DNA from: Nitratireductor arenosus
GTDB taxonomy: Bacteria; Pseudomonadota; Alphaproteobacteria; Rhizobiales; Rhizobiaceae
Length of the DNA: 64,000 nucleotides
Assembly: GCF_009742725.1 (NCBI RefSeq)
Contig: NZ_WPHG01000001.1
Coordinates: 780,001 to 844,000, forward strand
Reading direction: 5' to 3'
Shown: in pieces, positions 18,284 through 54,712 of the stretch
Position numbering within the stretch: the first letter of the stretch is position 1
Layout of the letters: each line of letters begins with the position of its first letter
Translations under genes and position numbers: made by a program
The notes under the pieces: model-generated
Database searches by the model: none
The model's input: only the letters and a program-made list of their open reading frames with translations
What the model was told of the DNA's origin: nothing

Positions 18284-18811
18284 TCAACCGCGGGCGAACG
18301 CGGTGTTCAGGAGCGTGATCTGGTCGGAAACCGGATTGGTCATGCCGGCACCGGCGAGCGGGTCGGCGCCGCCGCCATAAATTTCATCGTCGAGCCGACG
18401 CACCCGTCCCTGCAGATTAAGCGAATGCGAAACCAGCGCGCGGAAATCCTCCGGCAGTTCGCACCAGCCTTCCGCCTGATCGTGGGCCGAAGCAGTATCG
18501 AGCCGGACCTTCGACTTTTCCGAGGCAACCTGTTCGCGCGTCATCTCGCCGGAATTGGCCGCCCGCTGCAACAATAGCCAGGACGCGATCTGCATCAGCC
18601 GTGTCGTCAGCCGCATCGATTCGGCGGCATAGAGCGTGGCCGCCAGCCGCGACAGCTTCTTGGCCTCGGCCCGGCCCGGCCCGTCGAGATATTCCGCTGT
18701 CTTTTCGACGAGCCCCATGCCTTCGTCGTAAAGCGGCTTGAACGACGGCGAAAACAGCCTGCGTTCGGCGAGATTGATGGTATTCTCGTCGCCTCTTACC
18801 GCTTTACTCAT
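18284..18811 (-). CDS. rcdA: DUF1465 family protein, RcdA-like (regulator of CtrA degradation)
   Basis: A 175-residue helical protein of the DUF1465 family, whose Caulobacter member RcdA is an adaptor for ClpXP-dependent removal of the cell-cycle regulator CtrA. Visible features are an N-terminal segment NLAERRLFSPSFKPLYDEGM, a helical core TLYAAESMRLTTRLMQIASWLLLQRA, and a C-terminal disordered tail, which in Caulobacter matters for function. I start at the ATG at 18809-18811; 16 further codons upstream are open. A perfect CtrA box (18938-18952) lies in the upstream region, consistent with feedback control. In Caulobacter rcdA is known to be CtrA-regulated. Confidence 0.82.
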   Translation of the reverse strand: MSKAVRGDENTINLAERRLFSPSFKPLYDEGMGLVEKTAEYLDGPGRAEAKKLSRLAATLYAAESMRLTTRLMQIASWLLLQRAANSGEMTREQVASEKSKVRLDTASAHDQAEGWCELPEDFRALVSHSLNLQGRVRRLDDEIYGGGADPLAGAGMTNPVSDQITLLNTAFARG

Positions 18812-18937: not shown

Positions 18938-18953
18938 TTAACAAAGGGTTAAC
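18938..18953 (-). promoter_or_regulatory. Perfect CtrA box (TTAA-N7-TTAAC) upstream of rcdA
   Basis: TTAA at 18938-18941 and TTAAC at 18949-18953 are separated by seven bases, the exact consensus for the cell-cycle regulator CtrA. TTAA is rare in this GC-rich window. The box lies about 127 bases upstream of the rcdA start and about 32 bases past the terminator of the candidate small RNA. Binding here would make rcdA a CtrA target. Confidence 0.65.
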
Positions 18954-18983
18954 GCCGAAGCCCGCGCCAGTCCCGAAATCGGA

Positions 18984-19011
18984 CAAAAAAAGAGCCGCGT
19001 AAAGCGGCTCT
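18984..19011 (-). terminator. Intrinsic terminator of the candidate sRNA
   Basis: Read on the minus strand, AGAGCCGC, a five-base loop and GCGGCTCT form a perfect 8-bp stem followed directly by seven T residues. It is about 180 bases past the acyl-CoA synthetase stop, with a separate promoter-like sequence in between, so it more likely ends a small RNA than that mRNA. Confidence 0.85.
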
Positions 19012-19080
19012 CAGGAGTTTAACAGGGAGGCGTCAAACAGAGCAGACCCAGCCGCTCGGTAAGAATCCAGCAAAACTGGA
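18985..19080 (-). ncRNA. Candidate trans-acting small RNA with anti-SD loop (alpha-r15/AbcR-like)
   Basis: A ~96-nt RNA inferred from structure. Minus strand, 5' to 3': a hairpin TCCAG-loop-CTGGA (19066-19080); a GAGC/GCTC stem; then a hairpin with arms GTTTGAC and GTTAAAC (7 bp with one G-U pair) holding the 8-base loop GCCTCCCT (19017-19038); and last the intrinsic terminator. An exposed CUCCC loop is how alphaproteobacterial AbcR/alpha-r15 and alpha-r14 RNAs reach ribosome binding sites, and the hairpin looks like that family from memory. The family call is not verified. No ORF covers this interval. The putative promoter lies inside a CtrA box. Confidence 0.6.
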
Positions 19081-19085
19081 TGAAT

Positions 19086-19121
19086 TTAGTAAACACCTAT
19101 AAAGCTTAACGTCAGGTTAAC
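19086..19121 (-). promoter_or_regulatory. Promoter with embedded perfect CtrA box for the sRNA
   Basis: A TTAA-N7-TTAAC box (19106-19121) sits where the -35 element of the sRNA promoter should be: -35-like CTGACG at 19110-19115, then 18 bases, then -10-like TACTAA at 19086-19091. Transcription would start near 19079-19080. CtrA boxes overlapping -35 are typical of CtrA-activated promoters in Caulobacter. The only other gene nearby on this side ends convergently, so a different target is unlikely. Confidence 0.55.
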
Positions 19122-19190
19122 GGAGAAGGGAAAGTCCTATATTGGACGCAGGCGCCTGAACGGCGCGCGGCTTTGGGCCGCGGCTGCCCG

Positions 19191-20831
19191 TCACAACGAC
19201 TTCGCCATCTCGCGCAGGCGGAATTTCTGGATCTTGCCGGTCGAGGTTTTCGGAATCTCGGCGAAAACCACCATTTTTGGGCATTTGAAGCGCGCGAGCA
19301 GCGTCCGGCAATGCGCGAGTATCTCCGCCTCGCTCGCCGTCTTGCCCGGCTTCAATTCGACATAGGCGACCGGCGTCTCGCCCCATTTGTCGTCCGCCCT
19401 GGCCACGACACCGCAGGACGCGACGGCCGCGTGTTTGTAGAGCGCATCCTCGACCTCGATCGAGGAGATGTTCTCGCCGCCGGAAATGATGATGTCCTTC
19501 GACCGGTCCTTGAGCTGGATGTAGCCGTCCGGATGCATCACGCCGAGATCGCCGGAATGGAACCAGCCGCCGGCCAGCGCCTCGTCGGTCGCCTGCCTGT
19601 TTTTCAGATAACCCTTCATCACGATATTGCCGCGAAACATCACCTCGCCGATCGTCTCGCCATCGGCCGGCGTCTTGTCCATCGTCTGCGGATCCATCAC
19701 GGTCAGGTTTTCCAGCGCGGCGTAGCGCACGCCCTGCCGGGCCTTTTTGGATGTGCGCCCGCCCTTGTCGAGCGCGTCCCATTCCCGCTTCCATTCGTTG
19801 ACGACCGCCGGACCGTAGGTCTCGGTCAGCCCGTAGAGATGGTTGACGACGAAACCCGCATCGGCCATGCCCGACAGCACCGCCTCGGGCGGCGGCGCGG
19901 CGGCGGTGTTGAAGGTGACTGTTTGCGAAAACGCGCGCTTTTCCGCGTCGGGCGCATTGAGCAGGCTCGACATCACCACCGGCGCCCCGCACAGATGGGT
20001 CACGCCATGGTCGGCGATCGCGTCATACATCGCCCCGGCACGCACCCAGCGCAGGCACACATGGGTTCCCGCCTGAACGGCCAGCGTCCAGGGAAAGCAC
20101 CAGCCGTTGCAGTGAAACATCGGCAGCGTCCACAGATAGACCGGATGTTGCCCCATGCCGGCATGGATGGTGTTGGCATAAGCCATCAGCGCCGCGCCGC
20201 GATGATGATAGACCACGCCCTTGGGATTGCCGGTGGTGCCGGACGTGTAGTTGAGCGAGATCGCGTCCCATTCGTCATCCGGCATCGACCAGGCGAACTC
20301 GGGGTCGCCCGAAGCGACGAACGCCTCGTAATCGAGCGCGCCGATGCACTCACCCTTGGGATGCGGCGCGTCGGCGCCGTGCTCGGGATCGTCATAGTCG
20401 ATGACCAGGGGCTTCACCTCGGTCCGGGCGAGCGCGTCCTTCACCACCGACGAGAATTCCCGGTCGACGATCAGCACTTTGGTTTCGGCATGGTCGAGCT
20501 GGAAGGCGACGATGGCGGCGTCGAGCCTCGTATTGAGCGAATGCAGCACCGCCTTGACCATCGGCACGCCGAAATGGGCTTCCAGCATCGCCGGCGTGTT
20601 TGACAACATCACCGAGACAGTGTCGCCCTTGCCGATGCCGTGCGTCGCCAGCGCCGCGGCCAACCGGCGCGAACGGGCGAAGAAGTCGCGGTAGCTCGTA
20701 CGCACGGCACCATGAATGATCGCGGTCTGGTCGGGAAAAGTCATCGCCGCGCGTTCCAGATAGGAAAGCGGCGTCAGCGGCTGAAAATTGGCCGCGTTGC
20801 GGTCAAGGCCGGTCTCGAAAATGCCTGGCAC
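19191..20831 (-). CDS. AMP-forming acyl-CoA synthetase
   Basis: A 546-residue adenylate-forming ligase that activates a fatty or other carboxylic acid to its CoA thioester. Key motifs are the P-loop YTSGTTGNPKGVVYHHRG (about 190-207), the A5 motif LYGLTETYGP, the A7/A8 region GWFHSGDLGVMHPDGYIQLKDRSKDIIISGGENIS, and the C-terminal catalytic lysine in KTSTGKIQK. The MPMFHCNGWCFPW segment is typical of the medium-chain/DmdB-like subgroup, so 3-methylmercaptopropionate is a possible substrate alongside medium-chain acids. It starts at GTG (20829-20831) with GGGGAG upstream. It stands as a single gene. Confidence 0.88.
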   Translation of the reverse strand: MPGIFETGLDRNAANFQPLTPLSYLERAAMTFPDQTAIIHGAVRTSYRDFFARSRRLAAALATHGIGKGDTVSVMLSNTPAMLEAHFGVPMVKAVLHSLNTRLDAAIVAFQLDHAETKVLIVDREFSSVVKDALARTEVKPLVIDYDDPEHGADAPHPKGECIGALDYEAFVASGDPEFAWSMPDDEWDAISLNYTSGTTGNPKGVVYHHRGAALMAYANTIHAGMGQHPVYLWTLPMFHCNGWCFPWTLAVQAGTHVCLRWVRAGAMYDAIADHGVTHLCGAPVVMSSLLNAPDAEKRAFSQTVTFNTAAAPPPEAVLSGMADAGFVVNHLYGLTETYGPAVVNEWKREWDALDKGGRTSKKARQGVRYAALENLTVMDPQTMDKTPADGETIGEVMFRGNIVMKGYLKNRQATDEALAGGWFHSGDLGVMHPDGYIQLKDRSKDIIISGGENISSIEVEDALYKHAAVASCGVVARADDKWGETPVAYVELKPGKTASEAEILAHCRTLLARFKCPKMVVFAEIPKTSTGKIQKFRLREMAKSL

Positions 20832-21878: not shown

Positions 21879-22019
21879 GCTCGTCCACCTCCGGCACAGC
21901 CAAACTGACGGCCCGCCGACGGTCAAGACCGGATAGGCGTACCGGGACATGTCGGGGAGGGCCGGAGAGTTTGCACCAGCACGTAGCCAGCCTTGGCCGG
22001 CAGCGTTGGGGCGTCGCGA

Positions 22020-22175
22020 CGATCCACACACACCGGTGGAGAGGTTGATCCCGGGTGCCTACAAAGTAGGTGGGCGCCGTATGAAAGGACCCACGGGTCC
22101 AAACAGGGACAGCTCCCTTGGGATCAATAAGGCCCCGGGGAATGTTACTCCTGCCGCGAGGCGCAGACCGTCACG
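22020..22175 (-). ncRNA. ssrS: Probable 6S RNA (ssrS), boundaries approximate
   Basis: The call rests on position directly upstream of fau, on the lack of an ORF with a start site, and on dense pairing. On the minus strand TTGATCCC (22118-22125) pairs with GGGATCAA further down, enclosing GGGA/TCCC, GGACCC/GGGTCC and CCTAC/GTAGG hairpins. A CTATAT-like -10 element lies near 22183-22190 on that strand. 6S RNA binds the housekeeping RNA polymerase holoenzyme in stationary phase. In many alphaproteobacteria the order is zapA, 6S, fau; here zapA is 17 kb away. Covariance scoring would decide. Confidence 0.55.
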
Positions 22176-54414: not shown

Positions 54415-54551
54415 GCCGAGCCCCAGTATCAAGGACCGGTGCCGAGAGGAAGCCCACGCGGGTCAACTCGACTGTTTCGGAGCGACCAAACCGCGCGTGC
54501 GGTTTTCCCGGCCGGCTTGCAAGGGGTCTCGCGACGTCTTATGAAGCCGGT

Positions 54552-54712
54552 GCTCTAACGGGGTGCCACGGCATGTTTTGCCGGGGCTGAGAGGCATTCG
54601 GGTACGTCCCGGCCAACCCGCCGAACCTGATCCGGTTTGTACCGGCGGAGGGATTAGACGCTCGTTGCAAAGCGCCTGATTTCCCTTTCAACACGAACGA
54701 GAGGAGGCGCTC
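54552..54712 (+). promoter_or_regulatory. TPP (THI-box) riboswitch controlling thiBPQ
   Basis: The conserved elements GGGGTGCC, GGCTGAGAG, then CCGAACCTGATCCGG and the closing GGCGGAGGGA form a TPP aptamer at about 54559-54656. Downstream AGCGCCT (54671-54677) is complementary to AGGCGCT (54705-54711), which overlaps the thiB ribosome binding site AGGAGG (54702-54707). TPP binding would favour that helix, giving translational repression of the thiamine transporter when TPP is plentiful. Confidence 0.9.

Follow-up and report, generated by a model that had tools for sequence, protein, structure and literature searches.

The question raised by this locus of Nitratireductor arenosus is whether the interval between an acyl-CoA synthetase gene and rcdA, the latter encoding an adaptor for CtrA proteolysis, houses a genuine small RNA gene and, if so, whether that gene is placed under the control of CtrA. 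The window referred to throughout is the whole stretch of DNA analysed, of 64,000 nucleotides. A sequence-only reading of it had predicted a minus-strand RNA of about 96 nt, with three hairpins and a terminator, whose -35 region falls within a CtrA box.

The small RNA gene and its family

The candidate is a genuine small RNA gene with conserved structure, and the RNA is a new Nitratireductor member of the already known family BjrC1505. The predicted gene was recovered, on the strand and at the position proposed, with two covariance models. The Rfam model for BjrC1505 (RF02356) matches positions 18985-19127 of the minus strand with 71.8 bits, against a cut-off of 50 (E 1.7e-11). Because circularity was to be avoided, a further model, R1, was trained on 33 sequences from other families, with the promoter left out and Rhizobiaceae excluded; this model recovers 18983-19081(-) with 69.5 bits (E 2.1e-15), which is its sole significant match in the window. 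The features of the RNA are as follows.

18983-19081, minus strand: small RNA gene of about 95-100 nt, as delimited by the promoter-free model R1, with the 5' end inferred
18985-19127, minus strand: match to RF02356 (BjrC1505) in Rfam, the first ~45 positions (19127-19083) being read as promoter DNA
19065-19081, minus strand: hairpin 1 (ATCCAG/CTGGAT), paired in 96.4% of cells, with two of six pairs changed on both sides
19040-19057, minus strand: hairpin 2 (GAGCGG/CTGCTC), paired in 97.7% of cells, with five of six pairs changed on both sides
19017-19038, minus strand: hairpin 3, GUUUGAC / loop GCCUCCCU (19031-19024) / GUUAAAC, 7 bp
18984-19011, minus strand: intrinsic terminator, AGAGCCGC-UUUAC-GCGGCUCU followed by a T tract

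The 96-nt RNA has a folding energy of -37.6 kcal/mol (z = -4.9 versus shuffles). In an alignment of 58 sequences the four helices, that is the three hairpins and the terminator, are paired in 93.9% of cells, and 13 of the 27 pairs show changes on both sides, compared with 3.9 in shuffles. The loop region of hairpin 3, which reads GCCTCCCT on its 7-bp stem in the window, is the most rigid part of the alignment in that GACGCCTCCCTGT is invariant in 58/58 sequences; the inner pairs of the stem are likewise invariant and the outer pairs variable. Both the invariant GACGCCUCCCUGU hairpin and the intrinsic terminator, by which membership of BjrC1505 can be recognised, are present in the candidate. 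The likeness to AbcR/alpha-r15 RNAs that the sequence-only reading had drawn was not borne out, since the corresponding covariance check gave no match up to E = 10. The suhB/MmgR model (RF00519), also proposed as a check, scored 22.3 bits, under its cut-off of 41, and SorX membership was similarly rejected at 16.2 bits against a cut-off of 46.6.

The 5' stems of RF02356 (positions 1-46) behave differently from the rest of the structure, being paired in 45.8% of cells versus 43.3% in shuffled sequences. Since these positions hold the CtrA box described below, the 5' part of the model is best read as promoter DNA. RF02356 thus appears to take in approximately 45 nt of promoter, and a correction of its 5' boundary is suggested.

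RF02356 detects the RNA in 157 of 200 genomes at the family level, in 287 of 348 at the order level and in 30 of 289 across the class; these counts are lower bounds because diverged copies upstream of rcdA in many Rhizobiaceae (L421-L428, L430-L432) scored negative. None of 14 control genomes, Caulobacter vibrioides among them, gave a match. A search of 385 genomes of the class for the exact core TTGACGCCTCCCTGTT gave hits in 23, with none in the reversed control. The core is altered to UUUUUCUCCCUG in the Rhizobium and Sinorhizobium-type orthologues, which means that the complete loop is not shared by all members.

Two other structured RNAs were found in the window. A 6S RNA (RF00013, 72.2 bits) lies at 22017-22172(-), ~3 kb upstream of the small RNA; in Sinorhizobium meliloti Ak57 the 6S RNA is ~13 kb off and on the other strand. 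A TPP riboswitch (RF00059, 59.9 bits) is located at 54549-54670(+).

The CtrA-type box and the rcdA neighbour

The placing of the -35 region within a CtrA box holds, with an exact GTTAACCTGACGTTAA at 19121-19106 and strong comparative backing. So too does the adjacency to rcdA, the product of which matches PF07323 (E 6e-55) and is 93% identical to its N. alexandrii counterpart; the start at 18811 is favoured over 18859 from the start positions of homologues. The neighbouring genes, acyl-CoA synthetase upstream (19191-20831) and rcdA downstream, are on the same strand as the RNA. The relevant features are these.

19106-19121, minus strand: CtrA-type box GTTAACCTGACGTTAA, an exact TTAA-N7-TTAA, overlapping the putative -35
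19110-19115, minus strand: putative -35, CTGACG, within the box, assigned by its position and by the -10-like block downstream
19088-19093, minus strand: putative -10, TTTACT (TATRACT, TATAAAT and similar elsewhere), a conserved block 12 nt past the second half-site
18938-18953, plus strand: second exact CtrA-type box, TTAACAAAGGGTTAAC, in the gap that separates the terminator from rcdA, and assigned to the rcdA promoter
18284-18811, minus strand: rcdA (DUF1465), PF07323

CTGACG and TTTACT make up a weak sigma-70-like pair, and a generic promoter scan listed no promoter at the small RNA. Exact TTAA-N7-TTAA sites number two in the 64-kb window, against 0.04 expected, and both fall in the intergenic region of the small RNA and rcdA. 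Across the genome there are 14 distinct TTAAC-N6-TTAAC sites, and CtrA itself is encoded at C9:663518-664189, with 94% identity to the query.

Conservation of the box was scored in the 50-nt stretch upstream of the RNA at 120 loci. At least seven of the eight half-site bases are present at 114 loci (64 perfect), compared with 11% of dinucleotide shuffles (1.1% perfect). Since the shuffles take no account of relatedness, the pattern of half-sites and spacer is the stronger argument: when the sequences were aligned without using the box as an anchor, each half-site column held 1.3-2.0 bits and each spacer column 0.02-0.64 bits, except for the C after the first half-site. Nearly invariant half-sites around a free spacer look like a protein footprint. 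The position of the box is nearly fixed, being mostly 84-97 nt before CTCC in the 120 loci, and since the -10-like block follows at a fixed distance downstream, the box overlaps the -35. Boxes of the Bradyrhizobium type read TTTA-N7-TTAA (7/8). The conserved block at 19105-19100 and orthologous positions extends beyond the second half-site as TTAAGCTTT, exceeding the CtrA consensus. Taken as a sequence feature, the conserved box suggests that BjrC1505 is controlled by CtrA, and hence that it has a place in the alphaproteobacterial cell-cycle circuit.

At 109 of the 120 loci rcdA directly follows the RNA in the same orientation, and the ownership of the boxes can be judged from how they are distributed. 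The rcdA-proximal box is perfect at 37 of these 109 loci (0.4% in shuffles), mostly in Rhizobiaceae; most members of that family have it, and outside the family it is usually absent, leaving the small RNA box alone. Among 80 named Mesorhizobium, Aminobacter and Nitratireductor loci, the RNA core lies upstream of rcdA in all 80, with the small RNA box perfect in 77 and at 7/8 in three, and the proximal box perfect in 80/80. The RNA is a tandem duplicate at loci L266 and L265, with copies 200 bp apart. At L266 each tandem copy has its own CtrA-type box, and the box is also kept at both copies where one genome carries two (L263, L278). Five loci (L065-L067, L069, L077) keep the RNA and the box with a Cys/Met PLP enzyme gene, not rcdA, coming next, so that the RNA is not always found upstream of rcdA among the 120 loci. 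Conversely, a 1.5-Mb Rhizobiaceae genome (L429, 1501-1965) has kept rcdA and the proximal box and lost the RNA. Judged by these arrangements, the upstream box travels with the RNA and not with rcdA. The box accompanies the RNA in duplicates and without rcdA, and rcdA occurs at L429 without the RNA; the RNA is therefore not simply an rcdA leader.

Sinorhizobium meliloti and the competing readings

In S. meliloti Ak57 (CP090106.1, L437) the gene order is DUF1192, RNA, DUF1465, and R1 matches at L437:15714-15810 with 22.8 bits (E 5e-4); RF02356 does not detect this RNA. The 3.7-Mb record is labelled plasmid pSymB and bears chromosomal rcdA, tkt, gap, zapA and 6S RNA genes; the label seems wrong. 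The intergenic region contains two perfect boxes, TTAACCGCAAATTAA before the RNA and TTAACCCTTTCTTAA before rcdA, ~174 bp apart. From synteny, size and distance to the 6S RNA, as opposed to sequence, the orthologue is probably sm84/SmelC671, with the caveat that the 6S RNA distance differs by ~1.3 kb between strains Ak57 and 1021. That RNA, at 2986421-2986520 of the strain 1021 chromosome, lies between the co-oriented SMc03988 and SMc03989, was detected as a discrete RNA of ~80 nt and at 100 nt by sequencing, was given an ordinary sigma-70 promoter in an older study (PMC2573895), and ranked among the most widely distributed small RNAs in a 2011 survey. A CtrA ChIP-seq site has been reported at the rcdA promoter in S. 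meliloti, with rcdA mRNA unchanged on CtrA depletion (PMC4433202). Given two boxes ~174 bp apart, this site could belong to the promoter of the RNA, to that of rcdA or to the two together, and is suggestive for CtrA control of the RNA promoter. Such control would also offer a testable account of why CtrA is bound at rcdA without an effect on its mRNA.

We consider it probable that the locus is the Nitratireductor copy of BjrC1505, a trans-acting small RNA with a sigma-70-type promoter controlled by CtrA. A quite different arrangement, in which the RNA is the terminated 5' leader of rcdA, transcribed from the upstream box with the terminator setting the flow into rcdA, would accord with the same-strand order at 109 of 120 loci and with the scarcity of the proximal box outside Rhizobiaceae, where read-through from the small RNA promoter could feed rcdA; several start sites and a candidate CtrA site, moreover, have been described for agrobacterial rcdA (PMC10469942). 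Such an attenuator is nevertheless improbable, given that RNA, box and terminator are kept where rcdA is not adjacent and in tandem copies, that L429 has rcdA and its own box with no RNA, and that the probable S. meliloti orthologue is seen as a discrete RNA. The terminator, furthermore, is strong and near-invariant, and the conservation of the RNA exceeds what an attenuator needs.

The direction of control is a separate matter. A box positioned over the -35 fits repression as well as activation, in which case the RNA would be made when CtrA is low, in S phase or under stress. CTGACG is, however, a poor sigma-70 element at which the generic scan lists no promoter, and CtrA-activated promoters often have the box over a poor -35; repression is on these grounds unlikely, if a better prospect than the attenuator. 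Least plausible of all, and very doubtful in our view, is that the TTAA repeats are the site of another regulator or an AT-rich upstream element in which CtrA is uninvolved. The reach of the conserved block to TTAAGCTTT, past the CtrA consensus, speaks for it; the exact CtrA spacing and free spacer, kept across many families, speak against it, as does the CtrA ChIP signal from the corresponding intergenic region of S. meliloti.

Under CtrA activation, the preferred reading, phosphorylated CtrA would bind the TTAA-N7-TTAA box over the -35 region and turn on transcription, the usual outcome at promoters whose box is so placed, yielding the ~100-nt self-terminated RNA at high CtrA levels. The three hairpins and terminator would present the invariant loop, which could pair with GGGAGG-type Shine-Dalgarno sequences and so lower translation of targets. 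With rcdA equipped with its own CtrA box, CtrA would then switch on an RNA regulator together with a protein that promotes the breakdown of CtrA. CtrA binding, activation and anti-Shine-Dalgarno action of BjrC1505 are steps that we infer. The compact feedback module that had been envisaged here runs ahead of the evidence.

Loop function and comparison with known systems

The proposed complementarity of the loop to ribosome binding sites is sound to the extent that many Shine-Dalgarno sites match: 82 AGGGAGG-type sites complementary to GCCUCCCU precede ATG in the genome, against 6 in the reversed control. An excess is expected for any Shine-Dalgarno-like word, so the anti-Shine-Dalgarno mode is supported only in general. 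The further idea of a riboregulator of many mRNAs went beyond this, as the loop fits many such sites, yet none could be singled out as a specific or conserved target. Duplex energies with the ctrA leaders (14) and the gcrA leaders (10) almost always fell within the range of shuffles. In a search of its own genome for extended core complementarity, the sole mismatch-free match was the small RNA gene itself, and matches with three mismatches were as common as in the reversed control. Comparison of the CAGGGAGGC start sites across 14 genomes yielded no conserved target: the recurring case, thiG, follows a small frame that is read as thiS and ends in Gly-Gly, and reflects coding constraint, and the remaining clusters consist of paralogues from ABC, dehydrogenase and oxidoreductase families.

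In the open-licence literature searched, no mention of CtrA control of BjrC1505 was found, and a phrase search for CtrA-regulated small RNAs found no paper; the conserved CtrA box beside rcdA, with the proposed control of the RNA, was likewise not found there. If CtrA does control the RNA, this would provide the first proposed regulator, and a cell-cycle role, for one of the most widespread small RNAs of Rhizobiales.

BjrC1505 of Bradyrhizobium and Rhodopseudomonas agrees with the candidate in covariance model, core loop and terminator and in having rcdA as a neighbour; unlike the candidate RNA, its Rfam version includes the promoter. The probable S. meliloti orthologue, sm84/SmelC671, has the same gene order and orientation, is ~100 nt long and sits ahead of rcdA, accompanied by a CtrA box, but its loop is UUCUCCCU and RF02356 is blind to it; BjrC1505 and the probable sm84 are here joined in one family. 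AbcR/alpha-r15, MmgR (suhB, alpha-r8), the cuckoo RNAs and SorX also expose a single-stranded CCUCC-type anti-Shine-Dalgarno segment; the loop of the candidate is GCCUCCCU and not CCUCCUCCC. GspR and EcpR1 of S. meliloti are rhizobial small RNAs acting on cell-cycle mRNAs (ctrA, and dnaA and gcrA, respectively), but belong to other loci and families and have no reported CtrA box. Identity with GspR is ruled out by the different locus of GspR, between SMc03844 and SMc03845; GspR also has no known promoter signature.

A further comparison is with CcnA of Caulobacter crescentus, a non-coding RNA whose promoter contains a CtrA site and for which loop pairing is proposed near the ribosome-binding sites of ctrA and gcrA (PMC8959179). 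The candidate resembles it in being a non-coding RNA with such a promoter site and differs in locus and pairing: the CcnA gene is at the replication origin, whereas the candidate is at rcdA and is without notable ctrA or gcrA pairing. A broader proposal, which we offer tentatively and rate at slightly under an even chance, is that BjrC1505 is an ancient CtrA-activated small RNA arm of the alphaproteobacterial cell cycle, expressed alongside rcdA from a two-box CtrA locus common to both, such that the S. meliloti 'rcdA' CtrA site would at least partly belong to the RNA; BjrC1505 would then be the counterpart of CcnA in Rhizobiales, in function and not by descent.
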